DNA of 20,620 nucleotides. Source: a virus. The notes below the pieces were generated by a model, which was given only the letters and a program-made list of their open reading frames with translations, did no database searches and was not told the DNA's origin. The position numbers and the translations under genes were made by a program. Below, one piece after another: positions 67 through 12,403 of this stretch (position 1 is its first letter; every line of letters starts with the position of its first letter). The DNA is taken from IMG/VR virus record IMGVR_UViG_3300034198_011936, positions 1-20,620 of that record; one strand, given 5' to 3'.

Positions 67-297
67 ATGAAACTCAATCTCGACAACATCGTGCCGGCTC
101 CCAGTGTGGGGCCCGGCATTTCCAGATTGGAAGATGAGCAGGGCTCACGCCTGTTTGATTTCCTAATCACGCCGCCGAAAGAGCGGCCAATGCGAGCAAC
201 TATCAGGGCCAAGACTATGGCCCAAGCAAAACTATTCGCAAAGAACCGTCACCCACAAGCAGAAATCCAATGTCTTGGACACTCAAAGAGGCGCTGA
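67..297 (+). CDS. Small hypothetical early protein upstream of integrase
   Basis: Encodes 76 residues from ATG 67; no family is recognised. The C-terminal half is basic and helix-forming (MRATIRAKTMAQAKLFAKN, then RHPQAEI) and looks like a compact small domain. A second in-frame ATG at 190, with a weak purine-rich stretch (GAAAGAG) upstream, would give a 35-residue product and may be the real start, since ATG 67 has no visible ribosome binding site. The end overlaps the integrase start by 28 bases, consistent with a coupled early operon. Base composition is less GC-rich than the genes that follow. It could be a small directionality or regulatory factor because it sits next to an integrase, but that is only positional inference. 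Confidence 0.45.
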   Translation: MKLNLDNIVPAPSVGPGISRLEDEQGSRLFDFLITPPKERPMRATIRAKTMAQAKLFAKNRHPQAEIQCLGHSKRR

Positions 298-1058
298 AGA
301 AATCGCTCCAGGTCCGCTGGGCTGGGGCGAAGAACGAGAAGAAGGCAGTCGCCAATGCCATGCGCGTTCTCGACATTCTCGGACGAGACACAAGGCTGGA
401 CGACATCAACGCCAGCAAGGTGGATGCCCTGGTTGAGGGGCTGCGCCGATCGGGTGCCGGCCCGGCCACCATCAACCGCCACCTCGCCGCCCTCTCCGCC
501 CTGTTCAGCGATGCGTTGGACAGGGGCGGCGCCACCACCCAGCCCCGGATCCGCAGGCTGAGGGAGCCGGCCGGCCGCCTGCGCTATCTCAGCGCCGAGG
601 AGGAGGCCGCCCTGATCGGGGCGATGCAGGACCAGGAGGCCAAGGATCTCACCATCGTTCTGCTCAACACCGGCTGCCGGGTTGGCGAGCTGATCGGCCG
701 GGAGCTGGTGGTCGAGGACGGCCACCTTCGGGTGTGGGAGAACAAGGCCGACCGGCCCCGCTCTATTCCCCTCACCGCCAAGGCTGCCGCCGTGCTGGCT
801 GTGCGCCGCCAGTTCAGCCTCACCTACTGGCAGTTCCGAAAGCGGTGGGACGCCGCCCGCCTGGCTGCAGGGCTGGGCTCAGACGTGGTGATCCATTCCT
901 GCCGGCACACCTTCGCCAGCCGGCTGGTGCAGCGGGACGTGTCGCTGCCCGTGGTGAGCGCGCTGCTCGGCCATGGCAGCGTGACCATCACCCAGCGGTA
1001 CAGCCACCTGGCCAACAGCCAGCTGGCGGCAGCCGTTGCCTCACTGGAGGAAGCATGA
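270..1058 (+). CDS. int: Tyrosine recombinase / phage integrase
   Basis: A site-specific recombinase of the tyrosine (lambda-Int/XerC-like) family, expected to join phage attP to host attB through a 3'-phosphotyrosine intermediate. The 262 residues contain an N-terminal SAM-like core-binding domain (about 1-100, with ATINRHLAALSALFSDAL typical of it) and a catalytic domain (about 105-262). The full active-site set is visible: Arg137 (TGCRVGEL), Lys159, His209 and Arg212 (HSCRHTF), His235 (LGHGSV) and nucleophile Tyr244 (RYSH). It is shorter than lambda Int and has no arm-binding N-terminal domain. The ATG at 270 has no clear Shine-Dalgarno and overlaps the preceding ORF. The stop overlaps the RNA polymerase start (ATGA). 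Integrase beside RNA polymerase recalls P-SSP7-type cyanopodoviruses. An intact catalytic set argues that it is functional, not decaying. Confidence 0.93.
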   Translation: MSWTLKEALKKSLQVRWAGAKNEKKAVANAMRVLDILGRDTRLDDINASKVDALVEGLRRSGAGPATINRHLAALSALFSDALDRGGATTQPRIRRLREPAGRLRYLSAEEEAALIGAMQDQEAKDLTIVLLNTGCRVGELIGRELVVEDGHLRVWENKADRPRSIPLTAKAAAVLAVRRQFSLTYWQFRKRWDAARLAAGLGSDVVIHSCRHTFASRLVQRDVSLPVVSALLGHGSVTITQRYSHLANSQLAAAVASLEEA

Positions 1059-3472
1059 GCGAACCCTGCCCCAAGCTGCTGATGCAGCAGCGTGTGCTCG
1101 AGCGGGAGATGTTCTTGCTCGGCCAGGAGCGCGACGATCTGCTGCGCAACCGCTTCATCCAGAAGCAAAGCGAGAGCCTGTCCAGGTACGGCACGGCCAT
1201 GGTGGTGGGTGGCGTTGACCTGCTGGTGCAGCAGATCGAGCTCCACCAGCGGGCGATCGAGTGCGGCCGTGCAGGCCTGACCTTCTCCCTGCTCAAGCAC
1301 CTGGTCGGCGTGGATCCCGAGGTCATCGCCGCTGTGGCCATGAGGGTGGTGACCGACTCGATCAGCTCCGAGGTCAACGCCAACACCATCGGCTACCGGA
1401 TCGCTGACGCCTTGTGGGTCGAGATCATGCTGATCAGGGCGAGCGACTGGGAGCGCATGGTTCATGCCCGGGTGCGCCGGCGGGGGAACCTGGTCCGCAA
1501 CGACGTGATGCGGATGCGCAACACCGTGGCCTGGTCGAGGCAGGAGCGGCTAGGCATCGGCGCCTTCCTGCTCCGCCTGGTCGCCGCCCACACCGGGCTG
1601 GTCGAGATCGTGAACCTGCGCAAGGCCACGACCGTGGTGCCCCAGGTCAAGGCCACCGACCTGGCACTGGACTGGATTCGCAACGCCGTGGATCGCACAA
1701 GGTACATGGCGCCGATGACCATGCCCATGGTTGTGCCGCCGCTGCCATGGACCAGCGGCACGGAAGGCGGCTATCTCACCACCCTGCCGAACAACCAGCT
1801 GGTCAAGGACCAGGACTGTTCGGGGATGCGGCATGTGGGCCAGCCGGTGTTCGAGGCCATCAACATCCAGCAGGGCATCGAGTTCCGGCTGGATCCCTGG
1901 ATGCACCGGCAGCTTGAGGTGGCATGGGAGAACGACCAGGAGATCGGCCGGATGATTCCGAGGACCGGCTGGCAGATCCCGCCCTACCCCGCGGACAAGG
2001 AGCCAGGGTCTGCCGACGTGCAGCAGTGGAAGTTCGCCGCCCGGATCATCCATGAGCGGAACGACCGGGCCAAGCAGCGGCGCATCGTCATCGCCAAGCA
2101 GCTGTGGTTGGCCAACAAGTTCAAGGGGAGGAGCATCTACTTCCCGATGCAGCTTGATTTCCGGGGGCGCCTCTACTACCGGCCGCCGTTCATCAACCCC
2201 CAGGCCAACGACATTGCCCGCGGCCTGCTCAGGTTCCGGCCCACCCCTCTCACCGACGAGGGCTGGCGATGGCTGCGCATCCATGGCGCCACCGCCTATG
2301 GCCACGGCTTCAGTCGGCTGTCGTGGCAGGACCGTGAGGACTGGACGCTCGAGAATCGGGAGGCCATCTTCCGGTGCGGCAACGATCCCTTCGGCGGCGG
2401 CAACCTCTGGCGCGACGCCGACGACCCGTGGCAGTTCCTCGCCTTCTGCCGGGCCTACACCACCGCGGTGATCCAGGCCGAGCAGGGGAACCAGCCGGCC
2501 TGTGGTCTGCCGGTGAAGCTGGATGCGACGTGCAGCGGGATCCAGCACTACGCCGCCCTGCTGCGGGACCCCGGCATGGCCGGCATGGTGAACCTGACCA
2601 GCGATGGCACGGGCCAGCCGAGTGACATCTACACCCGGCTGATGCAGGAGGTGCTGACCAGGCTGCGCGTTGATGCGCAGGCCGGCAGCGAGCGGATGGC
2701 AGACGCCCGGCACTGGCTCGCGCTGCAGCCAGACCGGAGCCTGGCCAAGCAGGTGGTGATGACCATTCCCTACTCCGCCTCACGCCGGGCCATCTTCAAC
2801 TTCGTCCAGACCTGGGCGATCGACCGGGCCCTGGAGCTCTACGGCAGGGAGGCCTGGCCCTTCAAGTCTGGAGCGGTGGCGACCACCCACTACATGAGCA
2901 CGCTCATGGCCGACGCATCGCTGAAGATGGTGGCGCCAGCGGTGCGGGCAATGAAGTGGTTCAAGGCGGTGGGCCGCCTTGCCGGCAAGATCGGGATGCC
3001 GCTGGAGTGGGAGACGCCAAGCGGGCTGGTGGTGTGCCAGCAGTACGAACTCTTTGCTCGCCGCCAGATCACACTGCGCCGGCTGACGCCGGTGCCGATC
3101 GGGCTCTCGGTGTTCGACAAGCCGATGGGTCTATGCCCCAAGAAGATGGCCAACGGATTGTCGGCCAACGTGATCCATTCGCTTGACGCCAGCCACATGG
3201 CGTTGGCCACAATCCGCGCTAGGCTCACGGGTGTGGCGAACATCGCAGGGATCCATGACTGCTGGGCCACCACGCCCAGCGAGATGCCCGCCCTGCGAGA
3301 GGCGGTGCGCCACACCTTTGCTGAGATGTATCAGCAAGACTGGCTGGGCAGGATTACCAGTTCGCTGGTAGATCAAATCCCAGCAGAGTATCGGGCAGAC
3401 CTGCCCGTTCCGCCAGCCAAAGGATCATGGGATCCAACCACAGCAAACACCTCCGAGTATTTCATCGCTTAA
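1055..3472 (+). CDS. T7-like single-subunit DNA-directed RNA polymerase
   Basis: Transcribes phage middle and late genes from phage-specific promoters. The 805 residues compare with 883 in T7 gp1. Polymerase motifs are in order: motif A with Asp490 (KLDATCSGIQHY), motif B with Arg561, Lys565 and Tyr573 (LAKQVVMTIPYS; T7 R627/K631/Y639), HSLDASHM at 708-715 (T7 HSQDGSHL), and motif C HDC with catalytic Asp735 (T7 HDS, D812). Motif spacing matches the family. The start at 1055 is chosen because GGAGG at 1046-1050 precedes it and because it overlaps the integrase stop as ATGA; the open frame upstream is integrase shadow. The promoter-recognition loop (about 670-700) does not resemble T7's, so T7 promoters are not expected. 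Two substitutions stand out: Ser after Tyr573 where T7 has Gly, and HDC instead of HDS. Confidence 0.96.
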   Translation: MSEPCPKLLMQQRVLEREMFLLGQERDDLLRNRFIQKQSESLSRYGTAMVVGGVDLLVQQIELHQRAIECGRAGLTFSLLKHLVGVDPEVIAAVAMRVVTDSISSEVNANTIGYRIADALWVEIMLIRASDWERMVHARVRRRGNLVRNDVMRMRNTVAWSRQERLGIGAFLLRLVAAHTGLVEIVNLRKATTVVPQVKATDLALDWIRNAVDRTRYMAPMTMPMVVPPLPWTSGTEGGYLTTLPNNQLVKDQDCSGMRHVGQPVFEAINIQQGIEFRLDPWMHRQLEVAWENDQEIGRMIPRTGWQIPPYPADKEPGSADVQQWKFAARIIHERNDRAKQRRIVIAKQLWLANKFKGRSIYFPMQLDFRGRLYYRPPFINPQANDIARGLLRFRPTPLTDEGWRWLRIHGATAYGHGFSRLSWQDREDWTLENREAIFRCGNDPFGGGNLWRDADDPWQFLAFCRAYTTAVIQAEQGNQPACGLPVKLDATCSGIQHYAALLRDPGMAGMVNLTSDGTGQPSDIYTRLMQEVLTRLRVDAQAGSERMADARHWLALQPDRSLAKQVVMTIPYSASRRAIFNFVQTWAIDRALELYGREAWPFKSGAVATTHYMSTLMADASLKMVAPAVRAMKWFKAVGRLAGKIGMPLEWETPSGLVVCQQYELFARRQITLRRLTPVPIGLSVFDKPMGLCPKKMANGLSANVIHSLDASHMALATIRARLTGVANIAGIHDCWATTPSEMPALREAVRHTFAEMYQQDWLGRITSSLVDQIPAEYRADLPVPPAKGSWDPTTANTSEYFIA

Positions 3473-3473
3473 C

Positions 3474-4127
3474 ATGAAAGACTTCCACGTCATTGACAAG
3501 ATCAGCATTACAACTCCCAAGTGCAGGTTTCTTTATCCTCGGCTTGTGACTCCAGAGACCAAGTTTGACCCGGCTGGCTTCTACAAAGTCGTGGCACTTC
3601 TGGATCCAGTGGAGGCAGCTGAGATTGGTGACCAGCTTGATGATCTGTGGACCAGGCACAAGGCACACCTCAAGGAGCAGGCCCCGACCCACAGCTTCAA
3701 GGCGGCCGAGCTGCCCTATGGCTTCACCGAGTTCAACGAAGTGGCCGGCTTTCAGCTGAAGTGCAAGGCCAAGGCTTCCGGCGTGGACCAGCGCACCGGC
3801 GAAAGCTGGACCAGCAGGCCGGCCCTGTTCGATGCGGCCGGCCGTCCGATCACCGACCTGTCCAAGCTCAACGGGATGTGGACCGGCACCATCGGCCGGG
3901 TCAGCATCGACGCCTGCCCCTTCTACCGGACAGCGGTGGGCGCCGGCATCACCCTCCGGCTGCGCGCCGTGCAGATACTCGAGATGGTGACCGGCGGTGG
4001 TGACGCCGAGAGCTTCGGCTTCGATGCCGTGGAGGGCTGGTCTGCCGACGCTGCCCCGTCCACGCCGGCGGATCTTGCCCCGGTTCCCTTCGAGGCCGGC
4101 GTTGCCCCCGACGAGGCGGACTTCTGA
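3474..4127 (+). CDS. T7 gp2.5-like single-stranded DNA-binding protein
   Basis: Coats single-stranded DNA during replication and recombination. The 217 residues begin with MKDFHVIDKISITTPKCRF followed by LYPRLVTPETKFDPAG, a pattern I recognise from cyanophage gp2.5 proteins, with an OB-fold core to about residue 170. A Pro/Ala/Asp linker then leads to a short acidic tail ending PDEADF. The C-terminal Phe after acidic residues is the family's partner-binding signature; in T7 it contacts DNA polymerase and helicase. The tail is less acidic than T7's. The gene starts one base after the RNA polymerase stop without a clear Shine-Dalgarno. It ends as TGATG, overlapping endonuclease I, so translation is probably coupled. 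The 5' third is less GC-rich than the rest. Confidence 0.9.
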   Translation: MKDFHVIDKISITTPKCRFLYPRLVTPETKFDPAGFYKVVALLDPVEAAEIGDQLDDLWTRHKAHLKEQAPTHSFKAAELPYGFTEFNEVAGFQLKCKAKASGVDQRTGESWTSRPALFDAAGRPITDLSKLNGMWTGTIGRVSIDACPFYRTAVGAGITLRLRAVQILEMVTGGGDAESFGFDAVEGWSADAAPSTPADLAPVPFEAGVAPDEADF

Positions 4128-4477
4128 TGGGGTTCCGCTCCCGGTTCGAGGCAGAGGTCGCCGGATCGCTGCGGCACCGGGGCATCTCCTTCGGCTACGA
4201 AACCATCCACCTGGGCTACCAGCTCCAGGGGGTCTACACGCCCGACTTCGTTCTGCCGAACGGGGTAGTCGTGGAGGCCAAGGGTGCGTTCTCTCCAGCC
4301 GATCGGCGGAAGATGCTGGCGGTTCGGGAGGCCCACCCCGAGCTCGACATTCGCCTGCTGTTCCAGCGCGCCAGCGCCCGGATCGTGGGCGGCAAGCTGA
4401 GCTGCGGGGCCTGGGCCACCAGGAATGGATTCACCTGGGCAGAGGGTGTCATCCCCTCCGCATGGGCTGATGCCTAG
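4127..4477 (+). CDS. Endonuclease I (Holliday junction resolvase, T7 gp3-like)
   Basis: Resolves branched DNA and, in T7, degrades host DNA to supply nucleotides. The 116 residues compare with 149 in T7 gp3; the shortfall is at both ends. The active-site residues align with T7: Glu8 (FRSRFEAEV; T7 E20), Glu25 (GYET; E35), Asp40 (YTPDF; D55), and Glu50 and Lys52 (VVEAKG; E65, K67). The core segment HPELDIRLLF is nearly the same as T7's. The ATG overlaps the SSB stop (TGATG), and the 3' end overlaps the primase-helicase by 8 bases, so these three genes form a tight replication operon. The basic C-terminal tail of T7 gp3 is absent. Confidence 0.93.
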   Translation: MGFRSRFEAEVAGSLRHRGISFGYETIHLGYQLQGVYTPDFVLPNGVVVEAKGAFSPADRRKMLAVREAHPELDIRLLFQRASARIVGGKLSCGAWATRNGFTWAEGVIPSAWADA

Positions 4478-6080
4478 CCGCTTCCTCAAGCATGAGGCTT
4501 GCCCGGCCTGCGGCAGCCGCGACAACGCCGCTCGCTACAGCGACGGGCATCTTCATTGCTTCGGCTGTGGTCACCACGAAGGTGAGCCGGCAGAGGCCAA
4601 GCCAGAACCGATCCCTCCTATGGCCCCACCGACCAGGCCCCTGCTGCAGTTCCTGGACTTCCGCCAGCTCACCGCTCGCGGGATCAGCCAGGAGACCTGT
4701 GCCCTGTTCGGCTACGGCATGGGCAGCGACAACGGCAGGCCCTGCCAGGTCGCGGAGTACCGCAACCAGAAGGGAGCGGTGTGCGCCCAGCACGTCCGCT
4801 ACCAGGGGAAGCGGTTCGCCTGGACCGGCAACGTTGAGGAGCTCCAGCTGTGGGGCCAGCACCTCTGGCGGCAGGGCATGGGCGCCGGCAGCAATGCCTT
4901 CGTGGTGGTGGCCGAGGGGGAGATCGATGCCATGAGTATCTCCCAGGTGCAGGGCAACAGATACCCCGTGGTCAGCGTGCCGAACGGCGCCCAGTCCGCA
5001 CGCCGCTACCTGGCGGCCAACCGTGACTGGCTCTCACAGTTCGCCCGGATCGTCTTGTGCTTTGACTCAGACGAGCCGGGTGAGACTGCTGCCAACGACT
5101 GCCTGACCGTTCTGCCCCTGGGCAAGGTGGCCATCTGCCACCTCCCGAGGAAGGACGCCAACGAGATGCTCATGGCCGGCGAGGGCGCCGACCTGAAGGA
5201 GCTGCTCTGGAAGGCCACGCCCTCCCGGCCCGACGGGATCGTGAACGCCAGCGAGCTCTGGGATGTGCTGGTCAAGCCGGGCTTCAGCTCGATCGGCAAG
5301 TACCCCTGGTCGGAGTTGAACCGGGTGACCAAGGGGCTTCGGCGCTCCGAGATGGTGACGCTCACCGGCGGCACCGGCACCGGCAAGAGTCTGATCGCCA
5401 AGCACATTGCGCACGACCTCCTCAACCAGGGGCTCAGGGTCGGGTACATCGCTCTGGAGGAGAGCGTGCAGCGCACCATGCAGATGATCGTGGGACTGGA
5501 GTGCAAGCGCAAACTGCACACGGACCCCACCTGGCTTGGCGACGACCTGGTGCGTGATGCCTTCGACCGGCTATTCGGTTCTGGGAGGATGCACCTATAC
5601 GATCACTTCGGCAGCATGAACCCTGATACCCTGGCCAGCAAGATCAGGTATCTGGCTGATGCCCAGTCCACGGATGTAGTGGTGCTCGACCACCTATCCA
5701 TCGTGGTGTCGGGGTTGGATGAGCCGAACGAAAGGAAGGCGATCGATCGGATCGTCACCATGTTTCGGGAGTGCGTGGAGCAGACCGGGATCAACCTGCT
5801 CATGGTGTCCCACCTGTCCAGGCCAGAGGGCAAGCCGCATGAGGAGGGCGGCGCAACATCCCTATCGCAACTGCGCGGCAGCCACTCCATCGCCCAGCTC
5901 AGCGACTTCGTGTTCGGCGCCGAGCGCAACCAGCAGGGCGATCCGGGCGATCGTTCAACGCTACAGCTACGGGTTCTCAAGAACCGCTTCACCGGGGAAA
6001 CTGGTCTCGCAGATCGGTTGCTCTACGATAACGAAACCGGGCTATTGTCTCAGTCGATGTCTACCTACTTCGGTCTATGA
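4470..6080 (+). CDS. Primase-helicase (T7 gp4-like)
   Basis: A bifunctional replication protein that synthesises primers and unwinds DNA as a hexameric ring. The 536 residues hold, in order: an N-terminal zinc finger (Cys11, Cys14, Cys30, Cys33), a TOPRIM primase core with Glu149/Glu151/Asp153 (AEGEID) and Asp199-Ser-Asp201, a linker, and a RecA-like helicase domain with Walker A GGTGTGKS at 300-307, Walker B ending in Asp407 (VVVLDH), and a motif with SLSQLRGSHSIAQLSDF near 465-485. The ATG at 4470 is chosen because it lies just before the zinc finger and overlaps endonuclease I; the upstream in-frame extension is endonuclease coding sequence. The protein ends LLSQSMSTYFGL with no acidic tail, unlike T7 gp4, whose acidic tail binds DNA polymerase. 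The stop overlaps the next gene as ATGA. Confidence 0.95.
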   Translation: MPSRFLKHEACPACGSRDNAARYSDGHLHCFGCGHHEGEPAEAKPEPIPPMAPPTRPLLQFLDFRQLTARGISQETCALFGYGMGSDNGRPCQVAEYRNQKGAVCAQHVRYQGKRFAWTGNVEELQLWGQHLWRQGMGAGSNAFVVVAEGEIDAMSISQVQGNRYPVVSVPNGAQSARRYLAANRDWLSQFARIVLCFDSDEPGETAANDCLTVLPLGKVAICHLPRKDANEMLMAGEGADLKELLWKATPSRPDGIVNASELWDVLVKPGFSSIGKYPWSELNRVTKGLRRSEMVTLTGGTGTGKSLIAKHIAHDLLNQGLRVGYIALEESVQRTMQMIVGLECKRKLHTDPTWLGDDLVRDAFDRLFGSGRMHLYDHFGSMNPDTLASKIRYLADAQSTDVVVLDHLSIVVSGLDEPNERKAIDRIVTMFRECVEQTGINLLMVSHLSRPEGKPHEEGGATSLSQLRGSHSIAQLSDFVFGAERNQQGDPGDRSTLQLRVLKNRFTGETGLADRLLYDNETGLLSQSMSTYFGL

Positions 6081-6316
6081 AATGTCCACACTGCGGATCG
6101 GAAAGTGTTCGCATCTGTTTCACCAGGGCGGCAGCCTTCGGCGGTGCGATCCGGCGCCGGCACTGCCAGGACTGCGGCCACCGCTGGTACACCGGGGAGG
6201 TGGCGCTGCCAGCTGGGGCAGTCAGATACACCAGCGCCAACTCTGAGCGCATGGCTGACCTGCAGCCGTGGTGCAAACTCCAACCTCAAATTGCTTTCGA
6301 CAATGCAGTTCTCTGA
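6077..6316 (+). CDS. Small NrdR-like zinc-ribbon protein
   Basis: Encodes 79 residues, with an N-terminal zinc ribbon: Cys3 and Cys6 (MKCPHCGS), then AIRRRHCQDCGHRWYTGE carrying the second CxxC pair. Spacing and the basic RRR-x-C segment closely resemble the zinc ribbon of NrdR, the bacterial repressor of ribonucleotide reductase genes (MxCPxCG...IRRRRxCxxCxxRFTTYE). The ATP-cone domain that follows in NrdR is absent, so nucleotide sensing is not expected. Ogr/Delta-type phage activators also have a similar look. A role in DNA or RNA binding, such as transcription control, is reasonable; a partner for the primase-helicase is also possible given the ATGA overlap with its stop. It sits in the interval where T7 has DNA polymerase. 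Confidence 0.7.
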   Translation: MKCPHCGSESVRICFTRAAAFGGAIRRRHCQDCGHRWYTGEVALPAGAVRYTSANSERMADLQPWCKLQPQIAFDNAVL

Positions 6317-6626
6317 GCAGGATCGCTTCAATCTCTACCGCTTGGCCACCAGTCCGAACAAGGCCTACTGCGGGGCGCGAGCAATCGTGAACCTGCTCGA
6401 GCGGGTTCACAAGCTGGAGCAGGCGCAGCAGCAGCCAGAGCCCGCCCCGAGCACCCCGGCGGGGCAGGAGGAGCTGGTTCGCTGCGTGGCGGAGGGTGTC
6501 GCTTGTGGTTGCGGCGGCGACTGGACGCCCGAGGCCATCGCCGCGATCCTCGCCGTGGCCGACTGGCTGGCCAGTCGGGGATGGAACGAAGCCGCATGGT
6601 TTCTCCGCCGGGAGGTGGGGCGATGA
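6303..6626 (+). CDS. Hypothetical protein in the DNA-polymerase interval
   Basis: Encodes 107 residues; no family recognised with certainty. The N-terminus (MQFSEQDRFNLYRLATSPN) is followed by a helical segment with heptad-like spacing (ARAIVNLLERVHKLEQAQQQ), a Pro-rich linker, and a C-terminal part with four Cys residues (RCVAEGVACGCGG) and a predicted helical end (TPEAIAAILAVADWLASRGW). The start at 6303 is chosen because it overlaps the zinc-ribbon gene by only 14 bases; no good ribosome binding site is visible. The stop overlaps the next gene as ATGA. The reading frame also stays open upstream, but that part is shadow of the zinc-ribbon gene. Confidence 0.6.
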   Translation: MQFSEQDRFNLYRLATSPNKAYCGARAIVNLLERVHKLEQAQQQPEPAPSTPAGQEELVRCVAEGVACGCGGDWTPEAIAAILAVADWLASRGWNEAAWFLRREVGR

Positions 6627-7090
6627 CCGGCGACCGACTGCGCGAGCTGTTCGATCAGTACGCCTTCTTTCCGTGCGGGCGACAGGCCCTCACCTGGGAG
6701 ATGTTCGAGACTGCCGCCAGCGCCCTGCTGGCCGAGGCCCAGCCCCAGCCGGTTGAGCCCACGGATGAGCAGCTGGACAAGACTCTGTTCAGGGCATTGT
6801 GCGACTACATGGAGCAGGAAAGCCCGTTTGGCGGGCCTATTGATGAGAAGCAGCTGGACCGCGCCAAGGCCCGCGCCGTGCTGGCCCGCTGGGGGCGCCC
6901 TGCGCCGGAGCCGGTCAGCGTGGCCGAGCGGCTGCCGGGAGATCAGCTCTGCTGGTGGTTCGAGGCAGACGAAGACGGTGGCTATGGCAGCAACTGGACC
7001 TTGCTGCGCATTCGCGGCAGCGCCACTGGCTACACCCACTGGCTCCCCCACTGTGCGCTGCCGGTGCCGCAGGAGCAGGCCGATGCCTGA
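6623..7090 (+). CDS. DUF551-like hypothetical protein
   Basis: Encodes 155 residues. The C-terminal half contains PVSVAERLPGDQLCWWF and, near the end, GYTHWLPHCALPVPQ. This two-part pattern (SVxxRLP ... THWxPL/HxxLP) is the hallmark of DUF551-type phage proteins and of related proteins I associate with Synechococcus and its phages. The N-terminal half is helical and acidic, with the segment DEQLDKTLFRALCDYM. No enzymatic residues are recognised and the function is unknown. A purine-rich GGGAGG lies about a dozen bases before the ATG, which overlaps the previous stop as ATGA. The gene lies within the interval where DNA polymerase is expected. Confidence 0.65.
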   Translation: MTGDRLRELFDQYAFFPCGRQALTWEMFETAASALLAEAQPQPVEPTDEQLDKTLFRALCDYMEQESPFGGPIDEKQLDRAKARAVLARWGRPAPEPVSVAERLPGDQLCWWFEADEDGGYGSNWTLLRIRGSATGYTHWLPHCALPVPQEQADA

Positions 7091-7259
7091 CCTCACCCCC
7101 GCCCAGCTGGCCGCCCAGATCGCAACAGCTTGCGAATCCTCCTGGGTTCACAATCCCGTGGTCGCTGCCCTGCTGGAACTGGCCAGCCAGATGGAGCGCC
7201 AGCGCATCATCTCCGCCGACGTGCAAGCCATCGCCACTGAACTGTCGAGGTACCCGTGA
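7083..7259 (+). CDS. Small hypothetical protein (58 aa)
   Basis: Encodes 58 residues that appear largely helical (MPDLTPAQLAAQIATAC, then VVAALLELASQMERQ). It overlaps the preceding gene by 8 bases and ends in the GTGA that begins the exonuclease, so it bridges two coupled genes without a gap, which is the best evidence that it is translated. No family recognised; no zinc, membrane or signal features are visible. Confidence 0.5.
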   Translation: MPDLTPAQLAAQIATACESSWVHNPVVAALLELASQMERQRIISADVQAIATELSRYP

Positions 7260-8014
7260 CCACCGCTCTGATCGACGCTGACCACCTGATCTACAGCTGC
7301 GCGGCTGGCTGCGAGAAGGACATCCGCTGGGATGAATCCGTTCACACCCTGCACAGCGACTTCAACGACGTGCGGCAGGCCATCTCCAGCAAGGTCGAGA
7401 CCATCCGCCAGAACGCTGCGGCCGAGGCGGTGGTGCTGTGCTTCAGCGACTACCCCTACTTCAGGTCCGAGATCCTCCCTGGCTACAAGGCCAACCGCAT
7501 CGGCCGCCGCCGGCCGCTCGCCCTGGGCGACGCGATCGACTGGGCCAAGGAGGCCTTCGTCTCCCGCAGCCTGCCGGGGCTGGAGGCCGACGATGTGATG
7601 GGCCTGCTGGGCTCCGCCAACGTGGCCAGCATGGTCGTGGCCTGCGTGGACAAGGACCTTCGCACGGTGCCCTGTCGCCTCATGCCAGACCGCGAGATCG
7701 AAACCATCAGCGAGGCCGCGGCGAACAGGGCCTGGATGATGCAGACCCTGCACGGTGATTCGACCGATGGCTACTCCGGCCTGCCCAAGGTGGGCCCGGT
7801 CGCCGCGGCCAAGATCCTGGAGGGAGCCACCACCCTGCCGGAGATGTGGGAGGCGGTGCTTGCCGCCTACCGCAAGGCAGGCCTGGGTTACAAGGAAGCC
7901 CTGGCCACCGCTCGCGTGGCTCGCATCCTGCGGGCTGGCGACTACGACTTCCATGCCATCTCCTCCCACGCCCTCCGGCTATGGGAGCCCGCCGTTGACC
8001 CCGCCTTCCAATGA
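7256..8014 (+). CDS. 5'-3' exonuclease (T7 gp6-like, FEN family)
   Basis: Removes RNA primers and degrades DNA from 5' ends; in T7 gp6 this also supports host DNA breakdown, recombination and concatemer processing. The 252 residues show FEN-superfamily features: Asp7/Asp9 (ALIDADHLIYS), Asp65 and the basic segment ending GYKANR (about 64-81), the metal site Glu110-Ala-Asp112-Asp113 (LEADDVMG), Asp132 and Asp134 (VDKDLRT), Asp168/Asp171, and a helix-3-turn-helix DNA-binding element (GYSGLPKVGPVAAAKIL, 172-188). The start is GTG at 7256, inside the preceding stop (GTGA); no ATG fits the conserved N-terminus. T7 gp6 is 300 residues, so this is a compact version. Confidence 0.92.
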   Translation: MTTALIDADHLIYSCAAGCEKDIRWDESVHTLHSDFNDVRQAISSKVETIRQNAAAEAVVLCFSDYPYFRSEILPGYKANRIGRRRPLALGDAIDWAKEAFVSRSLPGLEADDVMGLLGSANVASMVVACVDKDLRTVPCRLMPDREIETISEAAANRAWMMQTLHGDSTDGYSGLPKVGPVAAAKILEGATTLPEMWEAVLAAYRKAGLGYKEALATARVARILRAGDYDFHAISSHALRLWEPAVDPAFQ

Positions 8015-8223
8015 GCCCGACTTCACCCAGCGAACTGCCCAGCGACATCACCCTGCCGCCCATCGATGAGGCCTTGCTTGTGGCCCTGGACCGCATCTAC
8101 CCGGAACGCTGCCCTGATCTGTTCGCCAACGATCGTTCGATCTGGGCCGCCGTTGGTGAGAGGCGCGTGGTGCGGATGCTATGGGCGGCGTATCGTGAAC
8201 AGCAAGAGATACTGGACCTCTGA
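8011..8223 (+). CDS. Small conserved-looking podovirus protein upstream of gp7.3-like gene
   Basis: Encodes 70 residues. The core LPPIDEALLVALDRIYPERC followed by PDLFANDRSIW and ending RRVVRMLWAAYREQQEI resembles a short protein I recall from the same position in cyanopodoviruses (LLxALExxFPxRCPD...). Function is unknown. It is ATGA-coupled to the exonuclease and TGATG-coupled to the next gene, so it sits at the change from replication to virion genes. Confidence 0.65.
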   Translation: MSPTSPSELPSDITLPPIDEALLVALDRIYPERCPDLFANDRSIWAAVGERRVVRMLWAAYREQQEILDL

Positions 8224-11419: not shown

Positions 11420-12403
11420 ATGCCTGCTCCCAATCTTGACGCATCCAGGCTTGGCCTGATTAACGCTGCCGGTGGCGGCACCTGGGCTGGCGACAACGCC
11501 ATGTTCCTGAAGGTGTGGTCCGGCGAGGTGTTGACCGCCTTCAAGAAGGCGTGCGTCTTCACCGAGATGACCAAGCAACGCACGATCCCCAGCGGCAAGG
11601 AGGCCAGCTTCCCGATCATCGGCGTCACCACCAGCTCCTATCACTCCGCCGGGACGATGATCACGGGCCAGTCGGTGAAGCACGCCGAGGCGACCGTTCG
11701 GATCGATGACAAGTTGATCTGCCCGGTGTTCATCGCTGACATCGATGAGGCCAAGAATCACTACGACGTGCGTTCGCAATACACCACGGAGATGGGCAAC
11801 AGCCTGGCCTACAGGCTGGACTCGAACATCTCCGCGATGATCGCCAAGGCGGCCCGCACGACCACCAACTTCAACACCGATCTGCCGGGCGGCACCCGGG
11901 TGAAGATCGTTGCAGCGTCCAAGGCGGCCATCACCGGCAGCCAGCTGGCCGCATCCCTGTTCAGCGCGGCCATCGCCCTGGACGAGAAGAACATCCCCAA
12001 GGAGAACCGATACGCGGTCTTTGGCCCGACCGAGTATTACAAGCTGGTTCAGAGCACGGATGTGATCAACCGCGACTGGGGCGGCCAGGGCGCCTACAGC
12101 GATGGCACGGTCCTTCGCGTTGCAGGCATCCAGATCGTGAAGTCGAACCTTCTGCCCAACGCCACCCGCACCGCGGTGACCGGCGAGCAGAACGACTACA
12201 CGGGCACCTTCGCGGATTGCGTGGGCCTGGTGTTCAACGAGATGGCGGTGGGCACCGTCAAGCTCATGGACCTCAAGATGCAGCAGACCGGCAACGATGT
12301 CTCCGCCATCTGGCAGGGCACGTTCATGGTGGCCAGCATGGCGGTGGGCACGGGCATCCTGCGGCCCGACTGTGCGGTGGACATCTACACCGCGACCAGC
12401 TGA
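11420..12403 (+). CDS. Major capsid protein (T7 gp10A-like)
   Basis: The HK97-fold shell protein that builds the icosahedral head. The 327 residues compare with 345 in T7 gp10A. Recognisable segments include AMFLKVWSGEVLTAFKKACV and RTIPSGKEASFPIIGVTT near the N-terminus, DDKLICPVFIADIDEAKNHY (about 93-112), and ENRYAVFGPTEYYKLVQ near the middle, all typical of T7-like cyanophage capsids. It is a single-gene transcription unit with its own leader and a terminator 18 bases after the stop. No slippery sequence or in-frame extension comparable to the T7 10B frameshift is visible; the terminator leaves no room for one. Confidence 0.96.
   Translation: MPAPNLDASRLGLINAAGGGTWAGDNAMFLKVWSGEVLTAFKKACVFTEMTKQRTIPSGKEASFPIIGVTTSSYHSAGTMITGQSVKHAEATVRIDDKLICPVFIADIDEAKNHYDVRSQYTTEMGNSLAYRLDSNISAMIAKAARTTTNFNTDLPGGTRVKIVAASKAAITGSQLAASLFSAAIALDEKNIPKENRYAVFGPTEYYKLVQSTDVINRDWGGQGAYSDGTVLRVAGIQIVKSNLLPNATRTAVTGEQNDYTGTFADCVGLVFNEMAVGTVKLMDLKMQQTGNDVSAIWQGTFMVASMAVGTGILRPDCAVDIYTATS

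Follow-up and report, generated by a model that had tools for sequence, protein, structure and literature searches.

A T7-type replication module without a DNA polymerase gene in a GC-rich, integrase-bearing relative of the polymerase-less cyanopodoviruses

The replisome of phage T7 is the textbook minimal replisome, and gene 5, which encodes the DNA polymerase, lies at its core. Here we describe a T7-like phage whose replication genes are arranged as in T7, with gene 5 missing. The DNA analysed, referred to below as the window, is the whole of the IMG/VR record IMGVR_UViG_3300034198_011936, a linear fragment of 20,620 bp. Its gene order is the T7 order minus gene 5, no DNA polymerase gene lies between the genes for the primase-helicase (gp4) and the 5′–3′ exonuclease, and the phage very probably replicates with some polymerase of its host. 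This kind of T7-like phage is already known: the MPP-C cyanopodoviruses (Prochlorococcus phages P-SCSP1a-u and P-SCSP2) have no identifiable DNA polymerase gene (Cai et al. 2022, PMC9860041), and the window adds a member that is rich in guanine plus cytosine (GC) and bears an integrase. A preliminary description, made from the letters of the window, had pointed to reports of such cyanopodoviruses. They proved to be real and to supply the top hits for gp4 and the major capsid protein: among the 50,697 phage records used in our similarity searches, the best matches were the P-SCSP1 phages, with identities of 49.9% in gp4 and 57.7% in the major capsid protein.

What occupies the place of gene 5? 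Gene calls and family searches agreed with the preliminary description that the genes for the single-stranded DNA-binding protein (SSB), endonuclease I, the primase-helicase and the 5′–3′ exonuclease stand in T7 order and that only four small open reading frames (ORFs) are found where gene 5 is expected. These ORFs, of 79, 107, 155 and 58 amino acids (aa), fill the 1,175-bp interval between gp4 and the exonuclease (6081-7255; hereafter the slot) and overlap one another and the flanking genes, an ATGA being common to the gp4 stop and the next start and a GTGA to the last small ORF and the exonuclease. The window is free of any N, and its GC content is 0.67 in the slot and 0.65 overall. Searches with the DNA_pol_A, DNA_pol_B and DNA_pol3_alpha profiles gave no match anywhere in the window; as positive controls, T7 and Roseobacter phage CRP-125 matched DNA_pol_A, and control bacterial or archaeal genomes matched DNA_pol_B or DNA_pol3_alpha. 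A hidden Markov model (HMM) derived from T7-like polymerases and searched unfiltered against every reading frame found nothing in the window at E ≤ 10, and the slot holds no polymerase remnant. The claimed absence of a family A polymerase from the window was thus confirmed by both the DNA_pol_A and the unfiltered searches. The family phrog_196, considered as the T7 polymerase family, was rejected because it has no match in T7 itself, and the search with it says nothing about polymerases; for PF03175 (protein-primed B family), no positive control scored above the cut-off, and the search adds little.

The same absence was observed well beyond this record. Among 367 loci with a readable gp4, we classified 155 as polymerase-bearing and 142 as polymerase-less, the remaining 70 being undecidable, and the distance from gp4 to the exonuclease was 3-1,342 bp in the polymerase-less loci (n=105) as against 1,944-8,080 bp in the polymerase-bearing ones (n=120). 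The unfiltered T7-like polymerase HMM yielded only noise at E ≥ 3 in the polymerase-less relatives, compared with 159 strong hits in the polymerase-bearing loci. DNA_pol_A was absent from all 20 relatives' records searched, and repeat searches of relatives' records gave no match to DNA_pol_A, DNA_pol_B or DNA_pol3_alpha, with positive controls. Eleven near-complete GC-rich relatives, which are 37.7-60 kb long (mostly about 38-40 kb) and extend from the RNA polymerase through the terminase, contain no polymerase of family A, B or C. Three of these eleven (38,724, 39,929 and 38,794 bp) have identical ends of 127, 62 and 123 bp, and we read these as complete circular assemblies, although they are not flagged so. 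In P-SCSP1u, P-SCSP2 and the uncultured phage S08C159, gp4 adjoins the exonuclease, and profile searches found no DNA polymerase gene anywhere in the genomes of P-SCSP1u and P-SCSP2. Judging from these relatives, the complete genome of the present phage probably has no polymerase gene either, and the central claim of the preliminary description, that of a T7-type replication module without gene 5 that would need another polymerase, is supported by the window and its relatives alike.

Some of the records collected have peculiarities of their own. The 60-kb IMG/VR record of locus L008 (L395-L397) carries two T7-like portal/capsid/tail sets (~12-20 kb and 52-60 kb) in the same orientation and is either a chimeric assembly or a pair of neighbouring prophages. 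Loci L090, a polymerase-less T7-like phage, and L093, in which a truncated gp4 frame lies near the exonuclease, are contigs in the bacterial metagenome-assembled genome TMED161; they are probably phage contigs binned with a bacterium.

The polymerase-less phages form a single clade in their replication genes. In the gp4 tree, from which the last 25 residues were left out and which included 18 polymerase-less representatives, the polymerase-less sequences occupy one side of a branch with a support of 100 in the Shimodaira-Hasegawa-like approximate likelihood ratio test (SH-aLRT), and the loss of gene 5 is one change. The exonuclease tree (SH-aLRT 98) and the RNA polymerase tree (87) likewise place them on one side, with one loss of gene 5. 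The capsid tree is weakly resolved and needs two changes. Of the phylogenetic comparison proposed in the preliminary description, the RNA polymerase half was therefore favourable and the capsid half was not decisive; because the capsid tree does not cleanly separate polymerase-less from polymerase-bearing phages, our claim of a clade is based on the replication genes and the RNA polymerase. The P-SCSP2 capsid (L086:12758-13744) is 42.6% identical to that of the window, as against 48-49% for several polymerase-bearing Roseobacter phages, a difference that may reflect exchange of structural genes between polymerase-less and polymerase-bearing phages. In the replication-gene trees, the window and the P-SCSP phages fall together, apart from the polymerase-bearing relatives. 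The part of the clade that holds the window is a GC-rich branch (54-65% GC in most members, 48-49% in a few) beside the AT-rich marine MPP-C; within it the window is set off by a rather long branch, its nearest relatives being 65-67% identical in gp4. We found no description of this GC-rich branch in the literature searched, the coverage of which was partial.

The two groups of phages also differ at the C-terminus of gp4. The tail of T7 gp4, which ends in ...DWSNDTDF, attaches to basic patches of the polymerase, and without it processivity falls about threefold (PMC5997990, PMC8472574). In the window, gp4 ends in ...LLYDNETGLLSQSMSTYFGL (...SMSTYFGL), with no acidic, aromatic-ended tail, and a gp4 ending in F, Y or W is found in none of the 142 polymerase-less loci, compared with 124 of the 155 polymerase-bearing ones. 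The mean net acidity of the last 15 gp4 residues is 0.3 in the polymerase-less and 3.8 in the polymerase-bearing loci, and the end beyond the conserved TGRL-like motif comprises about 10 residues (range 7-13) in the former and a median of 17 (range 7-33) in the latter. The natural reading of these sequences would be that, once gene 5 had gone, the docking tail of gp4 had nothing left to hold. The SSB tail ends in F in all 128 polymerase-less loci where it was read. This difference in the gp4 tail was not found in the papers searched. In addition, the polymerase-less clade is separated from the polymerase-bearing phages by 22 gp4 positions, of which 14 lie in the primase half and several replace basic residues; no contact could be assigned to these clade-diagnostic positions.

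How might such a phage copy its DNA? We propose that a single loss of gene 5, which encodes the family A DNA polymerase, underlies the clade comprising MPP-C and the GC-rich branch, and that gp4 would unwind the DNA and lay down primers for a recruited host DNA polymerase to extend. The phage itself encodes the gp4 helicase/primase, the gp2.5 SSB, endonuclease I and the 5′–3′ exonuclease, and the coupling of helicase to polymerase of the T7 type would be gone, together with the docking tail of gp4. The likeliest recruit, in our opinion, would be the host Pol III holoenzyme, an assignment that we favour rather than assert; we lean to it because Pol III serves the host as processive replicase and because the T7-style contact needed by a family A enzyme is absent. 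In favour of Pol I speak its place in the family of T7 gp5 and the retention of the F-ended acidic SSB tail; Pol I is mainly a repair enzyme, however, and the gp4 tail on which gp5 docks is missing from the whole clade, and we regard this choice as unlikely, though the most serious competitor. Cai et al. (PMC9860041) listed host Pol I first, followed by host Pol III or an unrecognised polymerase, without choosing among them; what our analysis contributes is the gp4 tail and not the idea of a host polymerase. The third of these options, which they keep for MPP-C, is that a phage polymerase too divergent to recognise has replaced gene 5; it might be one of the small slot ORFs or a large unannotated ORF elsewhere. 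The clade does have several ORFs of unknown function, but those of the slot, at 58-155 aa, could hardly accommodate a replicative polymerase and for the most part lack conservation, and the large ones that we saw sit in the region of the internal virion and tail proteins. Given also that the A, B and C family profiles gave no match and the unfiltered T7-like profile only noise in polymerase-less loci, we consider this improbable.

Could the gene simply have escaped notice? The record is incomplete, in that the early left region, part of gp16, the tail fibre and the terminase genes are not covered, and a normal T7-like polymerase gene might lie outside the 20.6-kb fragment. In all polymerase-bearing controls examined in full, however, this gene is located between gp4 and the exonuclease, the near-complete relatives spanning the regions absent from the window have none, and the gp4 C-terminus of the window is of the polymerase-less type, which makes this explanation very improbable. 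The preliminary description had also named an assembly gap or deletion at 6080-7256 as something that would overturn its reading, and the window does rest on a single metagenomic assembly. Yet gene 5 is absent from 142 related loci, which come from many contigs and from isolated infectious phages; faulty assembly is therefore very unlikely, as is a defective genome that has recently suffered a deletion, and the slot itself, packed with overlapping ORFs of which the first is conserved, and with neither an N nor a remnant of a polymerase, leaves it a negligible chance.

Several points weigh against our proposal of a recruited host polymerase. The window is a fragment and lacks the other half of its own genome. 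The losses of the polymerase and of the gp4 tail co-occur in one clade, which amounts to one independent contrast, and a coincidence is possible; moreover, 31 of the 155 polymerase-bearing phages are also without an aromatic gp4 end. That we favour Pol III before Pol I depends on the established roles of the two enzymes and on the loss of the docking tail for a family A enzyme. Finally, searches for signs of the host yielded none: no tRNA was found in the window or in 18 stretches of relatives, the tRNA T-arm motif matched no more often than chance can explain, and the 38 loci that a search with gp4 found in bacterial genomes included no close prophage (best 49%).

The first ORF of the slot (6077-6316) encodes an NrdR-type zinc ribbon with four cysteines (PF22811, E 1.1e-10; 41.7 bits as against a cut-off of 27.2). 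Pfam found no C-terminal ATP-cone in this 79-aa protein, which is NrdR-like in the ribbon only. A relative lies at or near the gp4 end in 53 of the 69 GC-rich polymerase-less loci (47 by a strict position criterion and six with a stop-to-stop frame beginning slightly further upstream) and in none of the 155 polymerase-bearing loci; the other three slot ORFs are scarcely conserved. No tblastn match to the protein was found in the 50,697 phage records. A profile search detected a diverged copy in P-SCSP2, in the group of which the family stands just before the integrase (P-SCSP2 648-872), and no such gene in P-SCSP1u. We did not find a zinc ribbon in the gene 5 slot described in the papers searched. 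NrdR is a repressor of bacterial ribonucleotide reductase genes (PMC12051234), and the genomes of MPP-C phages do not encode a ribonucleotide reductase (Cai et al. 2022, PMC9860041); because of this, we conjecture that a lone NrdR ribbon might free the host ribonucleotide reductase genes from repression. Carried further, the replisome of the clade may have been rebuilt on host Pol III, with the gp4 tail discarded, the -F tip of the SSB or a clade-specific surface of gp4 serving as the new contact and, in the GC-rich branch, the zinc ribbon of the slot derepressing the host ribonucleotide reductase for the supply of deoxynucleoside triphosphates; this composite scheme is speculative, and we hold it doubtful as a whole.

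The features of the window are listed in Table 1; all called genes lie on the + strand, according to gene calls and family searches. The window has a single-subunit RNA polymerase together with replication and head-tail genes in T7 order, as is characteristic of the Autographiviridae type. The fragment lacks the late genes of the right-hand side and the greater part of the early region, with part of gp16, the tail fibre and the terminase lying outside it. A small ORF that follows the exonuclease (8011-8223) belongs to a family present in 112 polymerase-less and 81 polymerase-bearing loci and has no Pfam match.

Table 1. Features of the 20,620-bp window, with their positions and the evidence for each.
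Feature	Position	Strand	Evidence or remark
Tyrosine integrase, left of RNA polymerase gene	270..1058	+	PF00589 E 3.7e-18; phrog_1 E 2.9e-41
T7-type single-subunit RNA polymerase	1055..3472	+	phrog_414 E 1e-170; ATG at 1055
gp2.5-like SSB, acidic C-terminus -DEADF kept	3474..4127	+	phrog_112 E 1e-21
Endonuclease I (gp3-like Holliday junction resolvase)	4127..4477	+	PF05367 E 3.4e-30
gp4-like primase-helicase; zinc-binding, TOPRIM and DnaB-like helicase domains	4470..6080	+	phrog_239 E 6e-172
NrdR-type zinc-ribbon protein, 79 aa, first in gene 5 slot	6077..6316	+	PF22811 E 1.1e-10
Small ORF, 107 aa, function unknown, not conserved	6303..6626	+	a single, weak relative: L029, E 0.001
Small ORF, 155 aa, function unknown, weakly conserved	6623..7090	+	relatives in L005, L018, L070, L033
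Small ORF, 58 aa, function unknown	7083..7259	+	no relative found
gp6-like 5′–3′ exonuclease	7256..8014	+	phrog_107 E 5.2e-57; PF02739 E 1.3e-8
Portal, then scaffold	portal from 8561	+	family searches
Major capsid protein	11420-12403	+	family searches
After capsid: tail tubular proteins, weak gp13-like, gp14-like, other probable internal virion proteins continuing past the window end		+	

A whole clade without gene 5, with members among abundant marine cyanophages as well as in a GC-rich branch, suggests that the primase-helicase of a T7-type phage can be made to work with a polymerase of the host. The mechanism of such rewiring is a question raised by Cai et al. (PMC9860041), and the difference in the gp4 tail and the conserved zinc ribbon make it specifically testable. 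In addition, the GC-rich branch too is missed when T7-like phages are surveyed with the DNA polymerase gene as marker.

Among known systems, MPP-C is the closest in plan, sharing with the window a T7-type gene order, the lack of a DNA polymerase gene in the place of gene 5, an exonuclease directly or nearly after gp4, and a gp4 without the acidic, aromatic-ended tail. MPP-C proper is defined by a marine picocyanobacterial host and a small genome (37-38 kb) devoid of auxiliary metabolic genes; its members have 34-39% GC, whereas the window has 65%, and almost nothing between gp4 and the exonuclease, where the window has 1,175 bp. P-SCSP2 resembles the window further in carrying both an integrase and a zinc-ribbon gene, so that the integrase, which the preliminary description suggested as a distinguishing mark, is not distinctive; its zinc-ribbon gene, however, lies upstream of the integrase and not after gp4, and P-SCSP1u has none. 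In the uncultured phage MedDCM-OCT-S08-C159 (Jalkavirus S08C159), with a gp4 49% identical to that of the window, the DNA primase gene adjoins the exonuclease with no polymerase between them, but this is a marine 10-kb fragment of 37% GC that groups with P-SCSP2. Roseobacter phage CRP-125 (gp4 46% identical) and other marine polymerase-bearing Autographiviridae share the order of the module and an integrase before the RNA polymerase, and differ in having a polymerase gene between gp4 and the exonuclease and an acidic gp4 tail, -DEDF. Escherichia phage T7 itself has the same order of gp2.5, gp3, gp4, gp6 and the structural genes, but it retains gene 5, flanked both before and after by several small genes, and an acidic gp4 tail ending in -DTDF.

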